The translations under genes were made by a program, and so were the position numbers. From Desmodesmus armatus (lineage: Eukaryota > Chlorophyta > Chlorophyceae > Sphaeropleales > Scenedesmaceae), in contig VIIQ02000189.1 in NCBI GenBank assembly GCA_007449985.2, positions 62,001 to 126,000 of the forward strand: a stretch of DNA of 64,000 bases. Direction: 5' to 3'. Positions 1,904 to 30,170 of the stretch are shown here, piece by piece (positions within the stretch are counted from its first letter, which is position 1; the number at the start of each line of letters is the position of its first letter). The notes beneath the pieces were generated by a model. The model was not told where the DNA came from, searched no databases, and saw only the letters and a list, made by a program, of their open reading frames with translations.

Positions 1904-2080
1904 ATGCCCAGCAAGAAGCATCACGCACCCCGCCCTGTGGTGCCGGTGCACAAACAGCTGGGGCCAAACAATGCTGCGGCTAAGACGCAGCAGCAGCAGC
2001 AGCAGCAACCCGGCAAGCAGCAGCAAGCTGGCAAGCAGCAGCAACCTGGCAAGCAGCAGCAAGCCGGCAAGCAGCAGAAC

Positions 2081-2118
<38 letters not shown>

Positions 2119-2235
2119 GCACGGCAAACGTCACAGCAATGGTCAGCATGGCAAACAGCAGCAGCACAACTACCACCAGCAGCAGGAGCAGCAAGCTGGC
2201 AAGCAGCAGTACAAACAGGGCAAGAATGGTCACGT

Positions 2236-2266
<31 letters not shown>

Positions 2267-5200
2267 ACAGCAGCAGGTGTTGAGCCTGCTGCGCGGAAGC
2301 GGCAGAAGTTCACCCACAACAGCAGTCAGCAGCAGGTGGACCAGCAGCAGCAGCAGCAGAAGCAGCAGCCGGCCCAGCAGCAGCTGCAGCAAAAAGACAA
2401 CAAGCAGCAGCACCACACACAAAAGCAGCAGCAGCAGCAGCAAACTGTCAACAAGCAGCAGCACAAGCAGCATAAGGTTGACAAGCAGCAGCAGCCGCAG
2501 CAGCCGCAGCAGCAGCAGCAGCGGGAGGTCCCCGCTCAGCGCAGTGCTGGCAGCAAGAAGCGAAAGAGGAGCAACCAGCCAGCAGCAGCAGCAGCAGCTC
2601 CTGCAGCCGCCACTGCACCTGCTGCTGCTGCTGGTGGTGACGAGGGTCCCCACCCCCCAGGCCCTAAGAGGCCCTGGCAAATCAGCTCAGCAGCAGCAGT
2701 GGGCAGCAACTGGCAAGCACTGCAGCAGCAGCTGCAGGCAGCAAAGGCAGCAGCAGCAGCAGATGGCACACGCAAGCCGCCGTACAAGCGCAGGCGCAAC
2801 GGCGACACTGCTGCTGCTGATGGTGTCGAGCAGGGCAGTGGGGGGCAGCAGTCGAAGGCGGCTTTGCGGAAACAGATCAGCAGCCTTGGGCGCAACACTG
2901 CGCTGACGCATGTGGTGGCCATTGATTGTGAGATGGTGGGGGTGGGGCCCAACGGAGACAGGGACTCTCTGGCGCGAGTGTCCATCGTAAGTGTTCAGTG
3001 TGGGGGCAGGAGGGGGGCGTGTTAGTGTGTGTTGGGGGGGGGTGGGGCGGGGGAGACACGGCACTGCCAGTATGGTGGGGGGGGGGGACTCAATGGAGAC
3101 CGGGAGTCACTGGCACGCGATCAAAGTGTCGATGGGTGGCGGGAATGCCCGGGGGGGAGGGGTGAACAGGATGGGACATCATCTTGAGAGGGTGGTGAAA
3201 ACATGGTGTCCTTTTGGCAAACTCGGGGAGAGGGGGGGGGGGGGCTTGTTGTTTGTTTGTGCAGGGAGTGGGATACCCTGGCAGGTGTGTTGATTTTGAA
3301 GGGGGCCTTGATGTACAGTGATTGGTCAAGGTACGAGAACAACAGTGATGCTGACGGCCCTCCAGGTGGTCCACAAGCTTCAAGGCAAGGGCACTGGGTT
3401 CGTTCTGCTTGTAAGGGAACTGCTTCCATTGTGAGTGCGAACCTCAAAAGCCATGTCACACTGCGATTGCCAAAAAAGCTGCTGTTGCCGTTTCTGTGTC
3501 CCTGATGTGACCCCCCCCCCACCACAACTACCACTGCCGGGCCCTGCATGCAAGTGAATGCGTCAGGCAGCACGCGCCCCTCCACCCCCACCACTTTGAC
3601 TGTCAGCTTTGACGTCCGATTATTGTCTGCCTCCCCCCCCCCCCTTACCCACGCCGTCCCCCCCCCCCCCCCCCCGCAGGTGAATGCGTCTGGCAATGTG
3701 TTGCTGGACTCGTTTGTGTCCCAGAAGGAGTCGGTGTCTGACTACAGGACGTGGGTCAGTGGAGTGACACCGCAGCACCTGGTGGGGGCACCCAGCCTGG
3801 AGGAGGTGCAGAAACAGGTGGGTGGGGGGGCTCAAGATGTGTTGTGGTGGTGGTGGTGTGTGTGGGGGGGGGGGGGGATGCTGAACTACTTTGGGGTGTT
3901 GTTCCAGCTCTGAATGGTGTTGTATGAGAGTATGTCACAGATGACGATGCCTCTTATGTCATGGTGTGAGAGGGGCATTGTCACCTCTGCCTGGGTGCAC
4001 TGACACAGCAAGGGTGTTGAAGGATCAGAGGGGTGAGAGGGGGGGGGCACCCAGCCTGGAGGAGGTGCAGAAACATGTGCATGAATGGTTTTGTTTGAGG
4101 GGGGGGGGTGGGTGGGATGGAGGCGGGGGGGGGGGGGGGGGGGTAGGGGGCAGGTATTCAACATGTTGTCACTGTGCAGTATGAGCCGCCCTCGATTGGA
4201 AATGCAGACGTGAGCATTGCTCGTATCATGCCCATGCTGTTGCTGCCGCTGTTGTTGCTCTCATCCCCCCCCTCCTAGGTTCACAAGCTGCTGTCTATTT
4301 TTGTTGGTTAGAAAAAGTGCGTCACCTTCCTTCAAACATGCTGTCGAACATGCTTTGACAAATGTTGATGTTGTTGCCCCCCCCCCCTTCCGCATCCCCC
4401 CCCCCCCCCCATGTCCCCCAGGTTCACGAGCTGCTGTCGGGTCGTGTTGTTGTTGGCCACAGCATCAACAAGGACTTCACACAGTTGAACTCGTCAGTTG
4501 GTCTCAGCATGCATCTGATGTTGTTGCTTCCACCCCCCCCCCCCCGGGCATCTCCCCTAGGTTCATGAGCTGCTCTCAGGTCGTGTTGTTTGTCACAACA
4601 GGTGACTCACCGTTCTTCAGACATGCTCCCAAACATAATGCCAAACATGCTGTTAAAGATGCTGCTGCTGCCCCCCCCCCCTGTCTTTCCCCCTCTCAGG
4701 TTCATGAGCTGCTGTCGGGTCGTGTTGTTGTTGGCCACAGCATCAACAAGGACTTCAAGGTGTTGCTGCTCAGCCACCCACACAAGGACATACGCGACAC
4801 AGCTAAGTGAGTGGCACCACACAACAGCAGCATGCTTGCTTTGATAAGTGATACCTACCTCTTACTGCCATTGCCACAAACATGCATCACCACCACCAGC
4901 AGCAGCCTTCAGTGTTCATTCAGCAGGAGTTTACAGGAGCCCAACGAAAGGCCCTCAGCTCAACTCACAAAGTCACTCTGCCACTGCTGCTCCCCCTCCC
5001 CGGCCACCACTGCTGCACCCCCCCCCCCCCAGGTACCCCCCCTTCATGTTCAGCAAGGGTGGCAAGCGTCGCCCCAAGGCTCTGAAGCAGCTGGCACTGC
5101 AGGAGCTGGGCCTGGCCATACAGGAGGGACAGCACAGCAGTGTGGACGACGCACGCGCAGCACTGTACTTGTACCTCAAACATGCAGGTGGGTAGGGAGG

Positions 5201-6338
5201 GTGTTTGAGGGGTTTGGAGGGGGCGGGTGTAATTTGGGGCGGGGGAGACCAGGGGGCAGCAGTGTGGACGATGCACGTGCAGCACTGTACTTGTACCTCA
5301 AACACGCAGGTGGGTGTGGTGTCGGGTTTGGTGTTTTTTTGGGGGGGGGGGGGGGCTTTTCGGGGGGGGGGGGAGATGATGCACGCGCAGCACTCTACCT
5401 CTACCTCACCACGCAGGTGGATAGAGATGGGGGGGGGGGGGGACTGCGGCAGTGTGGGCAATGCACATGCAGTGCTTTTCACCTTTGCCTTGACATTGCT
5501 TGTGGGTGGGATGCTTTTGTGCGGCAGGGGGTGTGTGCTGTCTTGTCTGTCTTTGGGGGGGGGGGGGGAGCAGTGTGGATGATGCGCCACGGTACCAACC
5601 GTGGCGCATCATCCACACTGCTCCCCGCGCCGCCAGAAGGACAGACAAGAAAGGCACACGCCCCATGCCGCACAAATGGTTGAGTGGTGTCTGGGGCCAC
5701 ACTCACTCCCGCTGACCCTAGCCGCTCTCACACTCCCCAACGTCACTCGTCTGTCGTGGGTGTGCCCCTGCTGCTGTTGTTGTTGTGTTGTACAGCTGCC
5801 TGGGAGGAAGCCCTGCGCACGCCTGGTGGCATCCAGGCTCTGCACACTCCCTCACTACTGACTCCACCAGCCATTGCACACTCTTTCACGTCACTCATGT
5901 TTGTGTTGGTGTTTGTCGTTCTTTGCCACAGCTGACTGGGAGAAGGCCCTGCGTACGCCAGGTGGCATCAAGGCGCTGCACACTCCCTCACTCACTGACT
6001 CGGCTAGCCAGTCACACACTCCCTCTCACGTCACGCATATTTCTGCTGCTGCCTGTTGTCTTTCTGCCACAGCTACTCTGGGAGAAGGCCCTGCGACCGC
6101 CAGGGGGCATCAAGGCTCTTCCCATCCTCTTACTGACTAAAATTGCCTCACACACTCTCACGTTACTCATGTCTGTGTTGTTGTATGTTGTCTTGATGTC
6201 ACAGCTGATTGGGAGAAGGCCCTCAAGACACCGGGCGGCATAAAAAAACTGCCCACATCCAACCAGGCGGCGCGCAAGAAGCGGGTGGAGAGCTACGGGG
6301 CCAAGGCCATCACTGACGACCCCATGGCGGACCTGTAG
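1904..6338 (+). CDS. REXO4: RNA exonuclease 4-like DEDDh 3'-5' exonuclease with poly-Gln N-terminus
   Basis: Five exons, 1904-2986, 3680-3817, 4700-4806, 5033-5187 and 6205-6338, join in phase to about 538 residues. The C-terminal 200 residues are a REXO4/Rex4p exonuclease domain: AIDCEMVGVG (catalytic D and E), DYRTWVSGV, GRVVVGHSINKDF (third acidic residue), IRDTAKY, then HSSVDDARAALYLY (His and last Asp). Family members act in the nucleus/nucleolus in rRNA processing. The first exon (361 residues) is mostly Gln, Lys and Ala encoded by CAG/AAG/GCA runs and contains KKRKR-like basic patches suitable for nuclear import. I start at 1904 (MPSKKHH); an in-frame upstream ATG at 1859 would add 15 residues. 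Every exon has degraded copies in adjacent introns (see repeat entries), and introns carry long poly-G after donors and poly-C before acceptors. Alternative splicing into the copies is possible. Domain identity is firm. Confidence 0.9.
1988..2525 (+). repeat. Interrupted CAG trinucleotide repeat in REXO4 exon 1
   Basis: Blocks of CAG alternate with short units such as AAGCAGCAGCAACCTGGC near 2000-2075. The longest pure-looking run is at about 2085-2117. The frame codes for Gln, so the tract is translated as poly-Gln with Lys and His interruptions. The opposite strand shows a long Leu/Cys-rich open frame that is only a by-product of the repeat. Confidence 0.85.
3081..3135 (+). repeat. Intronic echo of the 3' end of REXO4 exon 1
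   Basis: The segment around 3091-3130 (AATGGAGACCGGGAGTCACT, then GGCACGCGATCAAAGTGTCGA) is a diverged copy of exon 1 at 2950-2985 (AACGGAGACAGGGACTCTCT, then GGCGCGAGTGTCCATC). It lies about 141 bp downstream, just after a G-run, in intron 1. Confidence 0.65.
3553..3570 (+). repeat. Intronic echo of the 5' start of REXO4 exon 2
   Basis: GTGAATGCGTCAGGCA at 3553 copies the start of exon 2 at 3680 (GTGAATGCGTCTGGCA). It sits 127 bp upstream of the true exon. The preceding acceptor AG is degraded (GCATGCAA), so this copy is probably not spliced. Confidence 0.6.
4040..4084 (+). repeat. Intronic echo of the 3' end of REXO4 exon 2
   Basis: GGCACCCAGCCTGGAGGAGG then TGCAGAAACATGTG repeats the last 30 bases of exon 2 (3788-3817) about 260 bp downstream in intron 2. 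It is preceded by a short G-run and followed by long G-runs, as the true donor is. Confidence 0.75.
4279..4640 (+). repeat. Three intronic echoes of the start of REXO4 exon 3
   Basis: Copies begin at 4279, 4422 and 4561, each straight after a C/T-rich tract and an AG, and precede the true exon at 4700; spacings are 143, 139 and 139 bp. The 4422 copy keeps about 55 bases nearly unchanged (GTTCACGAGCTGCTGTCGGG onward, through the GHSINKDF codons) before diverging. The 4279 and 4561 copies are shorter and decayed. All retain acceptor-like AGs and could act as decoy acceptors. Confidence 0.85.
5226..5480 (+). repeat. Intronic echoes of the 3' end of REXO4 exon 4
   Basis: The exon 4 end (5139-5187, VDDARAALYLYLKHA) recurs at about 5261-5309 nearly intact with its GTGGGT donor, at about 5376-5418 with changes (YLYLTTQ), and as a short remnant near 5448-5475. 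Each copy is separated by long poly-G. A further fragment at 5571-5588 has become part of the palindrome described separately. Confidence 0.85.
5531..5667. repeat. Large foldback (inverted repeat) in REXO4 intron 4
   Basis: Arms 5565-5593 and 5598-5626 are perfectly complementary over 29 nt around a 4-nt centre. Imperfect pairing continues outward (GTCTTGTCTGTC against GACAGACAAGA) to about 5531 and 5667. The inner arm contains AGTGTGGATGATGCGC, a variant of the exon 4 sequence, so the palindrome was built from an exon echo and its inverted copy. Confidence 0.85.
5796..6127 (+). repeat. Three intronic echoes of the start of REXO4 exon 5
   Basis: Copies start at 5796, 5932 and 6073, each after a (C/T)ACAG-type acceptor; the true exon is at 6205 (spacings 136, 141 and 132 bp). 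The first two keep frame and read AAWEEALRTPGG and ADWEKALRTPGG; the third has a 1-base shift. After about 55 bases each copy runs into shared intron sequence containing CACACTCCCTCAC. Confidence 0.85.
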
Positions 6339-7200
6339 CCGGGCTGTCACAGCTGTAGTACGGTACTTCAGCAGTACTGAGGGGCAAGCCCAGGTTGTCA
6401 ACTGGCGTTGTAGTTTTCTGAGGCTGACTTGCTCTGCAGCCAGGGGCAGTTGCAACTGCTGACGACCCCATGGCGGACCGGTAGCCATGCTGTTCTAGCA
6501 GTGATTTTCCCTTTAGCTTTGCTGAGTTGGTTACTAAGAGAGCGCTGCACCCTGCACACTGTGTGACAAGTGATGAGCCAATGTTGTCGCCTGGGATTGC
6601 GGTTTCTGAGGTCGAGCGTTGGACTGGCCCTGTAGCCAGTGGCGACGGCCAGCACTGGCGACTCCATAACTGCCAGTGATCTATTGCCATGCTGTGCCAG
6701 GGGTTGAGCTGTGTGACACAGCAGTGTTGTAAAAAGGAAGGGAGATGGTTACTGAGGCTCTGTGACAGAGCTGCACCGTGTGCCAGACACAGTGGTGCAA
6801 GCTGACAGCCATGATCGTCACTCGGGGATGCGGTTTTTGAGGTTGATTGGCTTGTGTACTTGGGGATGCAGGCTGTCGCTGACCACACCACACCTGTAGC
6901 CATGCTGTGTTGGAAGTCGAGGAGTGAAACGCAGTGGTGCTGAATGGGGAGACGGCTGAATGAACACGGCCGCTTCAGACTCTGCGATCTTACTACAACA
7001 GCGGTGCTGAATGGGGAGACGGCTGTGTTGAGGCGGTGCTGCATTATGTGAGCGATGGTTGTCACTCAGGCATGCGGTCTGAGGTTGACTTTCGCTGCAG
7101 CTTGGGACACAGACCATCGCAGGCGATCTTGTGGCTGACCTATAGTCATGCTGTGTTACGAAGGGTTGCAAACAGGGTTGGCTCGGAGTGAGGAGTGAGG
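6339..7200 (+). repeat. Divergent tandem repeats downstream of REXO4
   Basis: Units of very roughly 140-250 bp begin near 6320, 6463, 6667, 6886 and 7136, recognised by a shared start (about GGCGGACCTGTAGCCATGCTGT) and inner motifs such as GATGCGGTTTTTGAGGTTGA and GGTGCTGAATGGGGAGACGG (present at about 6942 and 7002). The first unit overlaps the REXO4 stop codon, so the array appears to derive from the gene's 3' end. TGTAA at 6728-6732 may be a polyadenylation signal. I see no coding exon here. Confidence 0.65.
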
Positions 7201-13844: not shown

Positions 13845-13914
13845 CCTGCAGGAAGATTGCTAGTACTACTAGCAATCTTCCTGCAGGCAGCAACGGCTAG
13901 TAGCCGTTGCTGCC
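13845..13914. repeat. Two abutting perfect palindromes
   Basis: The first has 21-nt arms around a single base (13845-13887, core GATTGCTAGTACTACTAGCA). The second has 14-nt arms around one base (13886-13914, GGCAGCAACGGCTA and its complement). They overlap by two bases and could form adjacent cruciforms or, if transcribed, a double hairpin. Confidence 0.9.
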
Positions 13915-14019
13915 TGTCCGTTTGCCAATCCTGCTGCTGCCTGCATAGCCACCTCTGTGCCCTCTACTCAGTGATATACTGCAGGTACTGCAGCTGGCGT
14001 AACACAAGGGCCACAGTGA

Positions 14020-24525: not shown

Positions 24526-26907
24526 ATGAGCGCTCCAGCTGATCCCGACAGTGCCCCAAGCTGTAGCAGTCGAGACCCGCCAGACTGCTATGTGATCGTT
24601 TACAACGTCAGCAAGCACAGCAACGTTGGAACTTTGTTGAGATCCTGCACAGCCTTCGGCGTCAAAGCGGTGAGGACAACCAGCAGCCAACAGCAGCAGT
24701 AGCAGTAACGGTCAGTGGCAAGCACTTTTCAGCGAGCGTGTCCTTTTTTGAGTATAGCCATGCTTGTCAGACCTGCTTGCTATCCTTCAAGCCATCATAT
24801 GGCCTGGCAACCGATCCAGGTGCTGCTTGGCCCTGCTGCTATTCCTTCAGGCGTGTTTGGTGGGTGCCCGTCAGTTCAACAGCTTTGGCAGTCACGGTGC
24901 CACAGAGCATGTCAACTTGATGCATTTTCCCACACTGGAGGCCTGCTGCACCTACCTCAAGGAGACAGCAGGTAGGCATGGGTGGGGGGCAAGGGAGGCG
25001 GGGGGGGGGGGGGGGGGTAGAAGCAGAGCGCACTCAAGGTGGGTGTGTGTGGTGATAGGGGAAGGGTCCTCGCCCCCTGCTGTGGGGAGGATGGGATTGA
25101 GCAGGTGACAACCCCCCTCCCACCCTGGAGCCCTGCTGCACATTTTCAAAAGACAGCAAGAAGGCACCATGAGCGGGGGGGGGGGGGGGGCTGGCGGCGG
25201 CGGCGGCGGGCGGGGGGGGGGGGGGGGGGGGATTTAGTGTTTGGTGAGGGGGCAGGGGCTGTCCCCTCGTCCTGCTGGTGGTGGGGATTGAGCAGCTGAT
25301 ACATTTCCCCACACTGGAGCCCTGATGTACCCCAAGGAGACGGTAGGTACCCCGGGGGGGGGGGGGGGGTACAAGCAGAGCCCGCACCCCCGGGGGGGGG
25401 GGGGGGGGGGACCTAGCCCTGCTGAGTGGGATGCGGTGGACACTAGTTGATGGATGCCAGGTGGGTCTGTTGCCAGGGTGCGGTGTGGTGGGGCGGGGGG
25501 GGGGGGGGGCGAAGCGGGCAGAGGGGTGGGGGCTTGCCAAATATGCAGGGTGGTGAGCTGACCCTCAGCTCATCAAGTTGCTCAAGTCTATTGATAGGTG
25601 CTGCTGCAGTTGGATTCAACAAGTTTGTAGCATCACCACCACCATCCTCACTCCGCAAAGCCAATGCATGCAGTTCAGCTCATGCTTTCCCCGCACACCC
25701 CAGCGACATGCCCACATACCCTTTGCGCCACCTCAACCGCCTTGCTGCTGTGCCACAACGTCACTGCTGCTGCCGCTGGTGGTCGTTGCAGGGTGTCGCG
25801 TGCTGGGTGTTGAAATTGACCCCTCAGCAGTGCCCGTGCATACACAGCCCTTCACAGGCAACACTGCTTTCATGCTGGGGAACGAGGTGAGGCAGCAGAC
25901 TTCTGCTTTGCAGTTGGGCGTTCGAGATCTAGTACAGTGCAAGTGCAGCAAACAGCAGCTGTGGTGATACTGTCAGGTTGGCCTCACATGCAGCACAAGT
26001 CAGCATGCTGCCCAGCAGGATCAAATTATCAACGTTCAACCTGTAGCTATGAAGCTCAAGAGCTCATGCCAGCCATTCACTGATATTGGAGTGAGAATGA
26101 TCAGCAGAGACACTATCACACAGGCCTCAATGCAGCAGCTGGTGCAGAAGCAACGTGGCCATAAGTCTCTCACGATTGCAATCACACCTGTGCACCTGTG
26201 GTCGTGATCAGGCGGTAAACAGACACCCCCTGAGGGACAAGGTCTGTCAGAGAAGCAGATGCGGCTATGTGACGGCTTCGTTTACATACCCCAACACGGC
26301 CCCGGCACTGCCTCACTCAACGTCACAGTGGCAGCATCCATCGTGCTGCACCACTTTGCAGTGTGGGCCGGATACGCAGCTGTGTTTGTGGTGGACCAGC
26401 AAGATACTAAGTACACCTTGTTGCCTGCCCCCCCCCCCCTGCCCCCCAAACACACCCAGGGTCAAGGTCTATCAGAGAAGCAGATGCGGCTATGTGACGG
26501 CTTCATATACATACCCCAGCACGGCCCTGGCACTGCCTCGCTCAACGTAACAGTGGCAGCATCCATCGTCCTGCACCACTTTGCAGTGTGGGCCGGATAC
26601 GCAGCTGTGTTTGTGGTGGACCAGCAAGATACTAAGTACACCTTGTTGCCTGCCCCCCCCCCCCCTGCCCCCCAAACACACCCAGGGTCAAGGTCTATCA
26701 GAGAAGCAGATGCGGCTATGTGACGGCTTCATATACATACCCCAGCACGGCCCTGGCACTGCCTCGCTCAACGTAACAGTGGCAGCATCCATCGTCCTGC
26801 ACCACTTTGCAGTGTGGGCAGGCTATACAGAGCGGCAACGAGAGGGGGCAAAGTTTGTGGTGGACCCCCGCCCCCAGCGCACTACCCCCCGGGGGTTGTA
26901 CCGTTAA
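24526..26907 (+). CDS. SpoU/TrmH-family RNA 2'-O-ribose methyltransferase
   Basis: Exons 24526-24669, 24851-24971, 25792-25886 and 26686-26907 join in phase to 193 residues. The protein is a single SPOUT domain: IVYNVSKHSNVGTLLRSCTAFGV (motif 1, with the N and R of the active site), LVGARQFNSFGSHGA, HFPTLEACCTYLKE, then AFMLGNEGQGLS (motif 2) and FIYIPQHGPGTASLNV...AASIVLHHFA (motif 3), which form the trefoil knot that binds S-adenosylmethionine. The tail ERQREGAKFVVDPRP matches plant members annotated as tRNA/rRNA methyltransferase. The substrate (tRNA or rRNA) and compartment are not readable; no clear transit peptide is present. An in-frame ATG at 24490 is an alternative start. The last exon exists in three copies; only the third (26686) continues into the proper C-terminus. 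TGTAA at 27160-27164 is the likely polyadenylation signal. Confidence 0.88.
24931..25345 (+). repeat. Intronic echoes of the end of TrmH exon 2
   Basis: The exon 2 end (from CACACTGGAGGCCTGCTGCA at 24931 to its GTAGGC donor) recurs in intron 2 at 25121 and 25310, with a period of about 189 bp. The third copy keeps a donor-like GGTAGGT. Very long poly-G tracts separate the copies. Confidence 0.8.
26039..26086 (-). mobile_element. 48-bp solo 3' end of the LINE family
   Basis: The sequence is identical to 18243-18290 except for one base, and it stops abruptly at both sides. In minus orientation it ends at the same point as the element at 18243. It lies in intron 3 of the TrmH gene and is best read as a severely truncated second insertion. 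Confidence 0.75.
26238..26850 (+). repeat. Tandem triplication of the last TrmH exon with its intron
   Basis: Three units have matching positions at 26259, 26484 and 26710, giving periods of 225 and 226 bp. Each encodes EKQMRLCDGF(V/I)YIPQHG through VLHHFAVWAGY almost identically. The first two run on into AAVFVVDQQDTKYTLLP and a poly-C tract (12 and 13 C's), then CACCCAG and the next copy; the third has the true C-terminus. The one-base difference comes from the poly-C length. Confidence 0.95.
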
Positions 26908-29785: not shown

Positions 29786-30170
29786 ATGACACAGCACGCC
29801 CTGCACAAGATAGCCTGCGCACCCTGCCTTTCCGGCCTGTTTATCTGGTTTTGGGTGTGTTATATGGCGCCTAGGTTGGTTTTGTTGATGTACGCAAAAA
29901 AAACTGCTGGGACAATGTAAATGAGAGTCTGGTACTATTGCCCAACAACCGCACCGCACACAACCAGACATCTTCAAAGTTCCCCCAACCTCTGTGGTCC
30001 GAGGCAAATACGAAGATGTCTGGTTGTGTGCGGTGCGGTTGTTGGGCGATAGTACCAGACATTCATCGCAGTCATGCAGGCAGTACGTGTGCTGCCCACA
30101 TGATGACACAGCACGCTTTGCTCAACATAACACACCCTGCCGTTTTCGGCCTATTGGTCTGGTTGTGTGC
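29786..30170 (+). repeat. Direct repeats flanking the foldback
   Basis: GATGACACAGCACGC...CCTGC(C)TTT(T)CCGGCCT...TCTGGTT at 29786-29852 recurs in diverged form at 30101-30163. A CAGGCAGTACGTRTGCTG pair also occurs (30077 and 30217). The foldback lies between the first pair. Confidence 0.6.
29927..30060. mobile_element. 49-bp terminal inverted repeat foldback (MITE-like)
   Basis: Arms 29927-29975 and 30012-30060 are complementary over 49 nt with one mismatch and enclose a 36-nt loop. No open frame of its own. Such a hairpin may be a small foldback transposon or a small-RNA precursor; no convincing target-site duplication was found. Confidence 0.6.

Follow-up and report, generated by a model that had tools for sequence, protein, structure and literature searches.

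The closest described relative of the arrangement reported here comes from a potato RdRp gene in which a short tandem duplication copied the end of an intron together with the start of an exon and its 3' splice site and created a new intron and an inserted exon, in one case and one gene (PMC4974935). In the Rogers-type intron gain, as described in the same article, an exon segment with AGGT is duplicated in tandem and supplies the splice sites (PMC4974935). We analyzed a stretch of 64,000 nucleotides of the green alga Desmodesmus armatus (contig VIIQ02000189.1, positions 62,001 to 126,000 of the forward strand; "the window" below, position 1 being its first letter), in which the introns of a REXO4 gene contain partial copies of the exon edges of that gene, hereafter called echoes. 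As in the potato gene, a junction with its splice site is duplicated in tandem; in contrast to the potato case, the algal copies remain inside the intron, derive from both kinds of edge and were found in 21 of 90 sampled introns (PMC4974935). Unlike the Rogers-type gain as outlined there, REXO4 shows no new intron, and its duplicated piece includes a border that was already there (PMC4974935). A search of titles and abstracts, which left most of the subscription literature outside, returned no report of exon-edge echoes in an alga. In the reading that we prefer on the basis of sequence comparison, with a probability of about one half, the echoes would be non-functional remnants of repeated small tandem-type duplications across exon edges, for which a diverged functional copy often served as template, and would since have decayed neutrally.

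Copies of exon edges in REXO4

The REXO4 gene (1904-6338) has five exons which, spliced at GT-AG sites, form a single open frame of 538 codons; the product contains an RNase_T domain. The closest match of the protein is P0001 (72% identity), a transcript open reading frame according to its source, EukProt; the conserved part of REXO4 is colinear with it across all junctions, and the nearest named matches are those of chlorophytes. No new intron bounded by duplicated sites was found in REXO4, the gene for which this was tested, and the model needs no additional intron. A very long CAG-type repeat (1987-2522) codes for the polyglutamine-rich stretch of the N-terminus.

Self-comparison of the region confirmed the existence of the exon-edge copies described in an earlier note on this DNA, in introns 1, 2 and 4 (Table 1). 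Clear echoes were obtained for the end of exon 2, the start of exon 3, the end of exon 4 and the start of exon 5. The copies of the end of exon 1 and the start of exon 2 are weak, and some edges lack an echo: in intron 3 (4807-5032) neither the end of exon 3 nor the start of exon 4 has one at the threshold of the stricter scan described below. Two pairs counted in intron 3 by a looser scan were C-tract matches and were rejected. The echoes of the exon 5 start form an array that includes intron sequence, 5792-6092 and 5928-6223 being 78% identical over 307 columns. The coding end is echoed as well, in the 3' untranslated region (UTR) where there is no splice site, which indicates that a splice site is not needed for copying. 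A 66-bp piece of exon 3 matches, in the whole assembly, itself and its own echo and nothing else; with this one piece, the repeated unrelated sites sought as a sign of an introner or transposable element were not found. Neither tRNAs nor RNA families at gathering threshold were detected in the window.

Edge echoes in other genes of the same genome

Repeated exon ends were already visible in HSP70 matches to the same genome, and introns were modelled, from homology and splice consensus, around exon hits of four families (HSP70, CCT, kinesin and MCM), loci being counted as genes. The 20 HSP70/CCT loci were chosen after echoes had been seen in the HSP70 matches; one CCT place (C171, 56 kb) was excluded, and two of the loci (L022 and L030) have no modelled intron. 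For kinesin and MCM 11 loci were taken, with the exclusion of a kinesin place (C55) whose overlapping hits may be an echo. Eight HSP70 hits taken for echoes were removed by hand before intron building. Of 112 candidate introns, 22 (14 + 8) had no good splice pair and were dropped, which left 90 introns in 29 loci.

The stricter scan, which sought only copies of exon ends downstream and of exon starts upstream, detected edge echoes in 21 of the 90 introns and 10 of the 29 loci (REXO4 excluded) and in none of 360 shuffled introns; the looser scan gave one donor and one acceptor hit in 325 shuffled introns. The complete set holds 42 echoes, including 7 of REXO4. They are unevenly spread, only 1 of the 25 introns in the 11 kinesin/MCM loci being concerned. 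The recurrent local duplication process put forward in the earlier note is thus supported, but it is not peculiar to a single gene.

A second search compared exon pieces with all modelled introns of the same gene. On the expected side, the adjoining introns yielded 40 matches (39 touching the edge and 1 interior), and the wrong side none; 16 matches to other introns were the same echoes sighted from the far end of short exons. Inverted copies were sought as well, and the modelled introns contained none. The nearest copy lies 105-322 bp from its source. The rule stated in the earlier note, that exon starts are copied upstream and exon ends downstream and always with the splice site, is what would result from tandem duplication of any kind, provided that it crosses an exon edge and does no damage to the protein.

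Substitutions between exons and echoes

Of the 156 changes between exons and echoes, 98 are synonymous (0.54-0.705 in a bootstrap over 27 edges). The expected share is 0.465 if the coding constraint on the exon is all that restrains the drift of the two lines; another method puts the expectation at 0.42-0.43. When the closest echo of each of 28 edges is taken, 64 synonymous and 37 non-synonymous changes are counted (0.42 expected, P = 1.6e-5). In the 21 echoes of at least 94% identity the counts are 34 and 11 (0.43 expected) or, with one echo per edge, 24 and 8 (P = 1.8e-4), and the differences in this class amount to 0.106 per synonymous site, compared with 0.013 for non-synonymous sites. In the two classes of lower identity the counts are 25 versus 18 and 39 versus 29.

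The synonymous excess suggested a coding constraint on the echoes, which was dropped after polarisation of the changes with the BiP-like paralogues L013 and L014, each serving as outgroup of the other. On the echo side 17 synonymous and 33 non-synonymous changes were found (6 and 5 in the closest class only), and on the exon side 24 and 0, with 8 unresolved. As judged from these two polarisable genes, the echoes overall look unconstrained and in neutral decay, and the young ones seem to carry synonymous differences that predate them. Mostly synonymous differences separate the closest echoes from the exon of today, which suggests a diverged functional source.

These counts bear on the supply of decoy splice sites proposed in the earlier note and, more broadly, on the possibility that selection keeps the echoes because they serve as splice sites, decoy or alternative, or provide alternative edges of the coding sequence. 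Such a role would be compatible with a homology that covers both the exon and the splice signal, with the synonymous excess and with splice dinucleotides intact in 34 of the 42 echoes (lost in 8); by our own estimate this last proportion is roughly what neutral decay would leave. It is hardly compatible with the neutral-looking echo-side changes of the BiP genes, with a frame that splicing at the echo site would keep open in 3 of 42 cases (0 of 7 in REXO4), with indels in some older copies and with the colinearity of the relative's P0001 with the echo-free spliced model. We consider a selected function highly improbable, and the proposed decoy supply finds no support here.

Local false duplication is a known defect of assemblies, in which the copies of two haplotypes are placed side by side. 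Two diverged haplotypes treated in this way would show sharp limits of homology and differences at synonymous sites only. Up to four echoes per edge and a graded decay with non-synonymous changes are not expected there; indels occur in some copies, and the MCM genes, with 8 loci in the assembly, are apparently not doubled. Given the graded decay and the copy number, an assembly error should be very unlikely.

Limits of the homology around the splice site

The outer end of the homology lies 0-12 bp beyond the splice site in 28 of the 42 echoes, before it in 6 and more than 12 bp beyond it in 8. A whole-unit test revealed shared intron sequence for 22 echoes (z >= 3.9; z >= 3.5 with echoes masked), as in locus L027, where 5836-5980 and 5960-6104 are 99% identical, and none for the other 20. 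The sharp limit could point to a process aimed at the border, such as RNA-templated copying of exon and splice signal into the intron, and among the 21 echoes that are at least 94% identical to their exon, 8 (9 when echoes were left unmasked) show no intron homology in the unit test. The 22 units with shared intron sequence, the lack of any wrong-side copy and the echo of a coding end argue against such a process, which appears to us a most doubtful explanation. Edge counts are weak evidence for border targeting, since random breakpoints already give many edge-spanning events: in a simulation in which the units measured about 150 bp and the introns about 300 bp, about 50% of the viable duplications span an edge. 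We observed 21 introns with edge echoes and 7 with intron-only pairs, i.e. 0.75 against about 0.50 expected (p = 0.008). The border preference is thus modest, and detection bias may account for part of it.

A second allele would be unnecessary under ordinary tandem duplication on the same chromosome, if indels then rapidly turned over the low-complexity intron part and gene conversion now and then carried exon sequence into the echo. Whole units are indeed shared in several arrays. In the units of L023 the exon part stays alike while the intron flank drifts, and the intron 5361-6483 of L013 holds five copies of one edge with all four combinations at two sites, which fit exchange or recurrent mutation. 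G or C runs are also longer in the flanks of echo edges than in other flanks (p = 0.0005 for donors and 0.04 for acceptors). Alone, this explanation leaves the synonymous excess of the closest echoes unaccounted for, and we regard it as possible but rather less likely than duplication from a diverged copy. Random tandem duplication explains direction, side and splice site, but not the sharp limit of the homology in young copies. In two arrays (L027 6220 and L013 4482) the outermost copy comprises the exon part only, while the intron part is common to the inner ones, which would fit an initial copy that exchange later multiplied.

Homopolymers, intron length and palindromes

The coverage by local duplications tracks G/C homopolymers counted outside the duplications (Spearman 0.74, 31 loci). 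Among echo-free introns, G/C runs are present in 9 of 22 in echo genes and in 3 of 47 in other genes, and the median intron length is 532 bp with an echo versus 296 bp without. G/C runs as the duplication junction itself were rejected, the enrichment at junctions being weak. Two Cpn60-like loci, L028 and L030, have 35% and 12% of their bases in local duplications and many G/C runs, with one modellable intron altogether. TTAGGG-like repeats lie within a duplicated intron unit of the CCT gene L027 (5901-6155, gene orientation).

REXO4 intron 4 holds a long palindrome (Table 1) whose left arm contains exon-4-like sequence (5563-5585, 91% over 23 bp to 5252-5274). Other long palindromes of the window are found at 29921-30066 and 13845-13916, and the sampled loci contain 23 in 243 kb. 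Palindromes were rejected as the cause of the echoes: 10 are present in 90.9 kb of echo loci and also 13 in 152.5 kb of other loci.

A putative origin of the echoes

Gene conversion can be coupled to end joining, synthesis on a homologous template being followed by joining, and leaves direct repeats beside the break. The direct repeats of REXO4 and of the other echo genes resemble this outcome, although in D. armatus the pathway is deduced from sequence only. In the duplication model that we favour, breaks in homopolymer-rich introns would undergo repair. The repair synthesis would start in the intron, cross the splice site and continue into the exon, after which the end so formed would be joined to the other side of the break. 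The template would often be a diverged functional copy, belonging to a different allele or haplotype lineage; alternatively, a different allele would later have replaced the exon. Arrays would then enlarge through exchange between exon and echo. The homology would tend to stop at the splice site because selection keeps the exon and its splice signal alike, and the border-limited homology would be accounted for, in part only, by a diverged template or a re-copied exon part.

Several observations weigh against this model, in addition to the eight close echoes without intron homology mentioned above. A 50-bp flank test is less clear-cut than the unit test (p < 0.05 in 21 of 42), and its positives include two REXO4 echoes called unrelated by the latter. 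At a synonymous difference of about 10% allelic introns should in most cases remain alignable, so that one has to suppose either additional turnover of the introns or a renewed copying of the exon part. A second allele did not appear: apart from its echo, exon 3 of REXO4 is present once, and MCM genes are found at 8 loci. Homopolymer counts and duplications may have a common regional cause; at the inner junction, a G run of at least 5 is mildly raised for donor echoes (4 of 24 versus 7.0% expected) and C runs are not raised for acceptor echoes (1 of 18 versus 7.3%), which makes the step of breakage at homopolymers weak. Finally, echoes within one array are non-independent, and a change on the exon side enters the count anew with each echo.

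A SpoU/TrmH-like gene in the same window

A SpoU/TrmH-like gene at 24.9-26.9 kb (24900-26907) has copies on both the donor and the acceptor side, G runs, and a tandem repeat of 225 bp in 2.6 copies (97%). Its last exon matches Pfam SpoU_methylase with an E-value of 8.7e-07 and 29.6 bits, just below the cut-off of 29.7 bits. The older of the two echoes of this exon differs from it by 11 synonymous and 2 non-synonymous changes in the first 142 bases and by 12 and 12 over 160 bases without gaps; over the first 142 bases it shows, as far as this alignment tells, the same synonymous excess as the young echoes. Beyond about base 134 both echoes have a common tail that differs from the exon.

Table 1. 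Positions in the window of the REXO4 and SpoU/TrmH-like exons, their echoes and the intron 4 palindrome.
Feature	Position	Strand	Remarks
REXO4 exon 1 (polyQ N-terminus and start of exonuclease domain)	1904-2986	+	spliced model, single open frame from ATG to stop
REXO4 exon 2	3680-3817	+	splice model; colinear with P0001
REXO4 exon 3	4700-4806	+	splice model; colinear with P0001
REXO4 exon 4	5033-5187	+	splice model; colinear with P0001
REXO4 exon 5 with stop	6205-6338	+	splice model; colinear with P0001
Weak echo, exon 1 end	3079-3117	+	79% to 2938-2976; score equal to the threshold of 19
Weak echo, exon 2 start	3550-3569	+	90% over 20 bp to 3676-3695; looser BLAST scan only
Echo, exon 2 end; a G run lies just before it	4040-4079	+	95% to 3781-3820
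Weak echo, exon 3 start	4268-4295	+	86% over 28 bp to 4689-4716; below stricter-scan threshold
Echo, exon 3 start with AG	4419-4479	+	98% to 4697-4757; single exon difference synonymous
Echo, exon 3 start with AG	4559-4590	+	94% to 4698-4729
Echo, exon 4 end with GT	5257-5315	+	95% to 5135-5193; 3 synonymous, 0 non-synonymous
Older echo, exon 4 end; 1-nt gap before its GT	5375-5408	+	85% to 5145-5178
More decayed copy, exon 4 end	5446-5472	+	85% over 27 bp to another echo, 5256-5282
Palindrome in intron 4	5516-5676	+	85% over 162 columns; RNA fold z-score -19
Tandem array, three echoes of exon 5 start with intron sequence	5792-6204	+	spacings 136, 142, 131
Coding-end (stop codon) echo in 3' UTR	6459-6493	+	91% to 6313-6347
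SpoU/TrmH-like donor-side echo; exon apparently ending at about 24971 (border judged by eye)	25297-25364	+	78% to 24918-24989
Old echo of SpoU/TrmH-like last exon; approximate end	26235-26393	+	
226-bp tandem unit, second echo of SpoU/TrmH-like last exon	26460-26685	+	134 bases identical to 26686 onward
SpoU/TrmH-like last exon, 73 codons and stop, predicted from sequence	26686-26907	+	

Significance

A wider proposal may be made tentatively, and we hold it to be clearly less probable than the duplication origin of the echoes: exon-anchored recombination between highly diverged haplotypes would steadily enter exon edges and the accompanying splice signals into the introns as snapshots. The introns would thereby grow inward from the exon edges and preserve a dated record of the synonymous states through which the gene has passed. 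Search hits on echoes resemble extra exons, which is a warning for annotation, and the many intact and apparently unused splice sites beside the real ones would constitute a natural test of the choice made by the spliceosome. If the phenomenon is true genome-wide, it would be an identifiable source of intron growth in this lineage, and the echoes would be molecular fossils of older or alternative coding edges, in which the synonymous change of a gene could be dated against the neutral decay of its copy.

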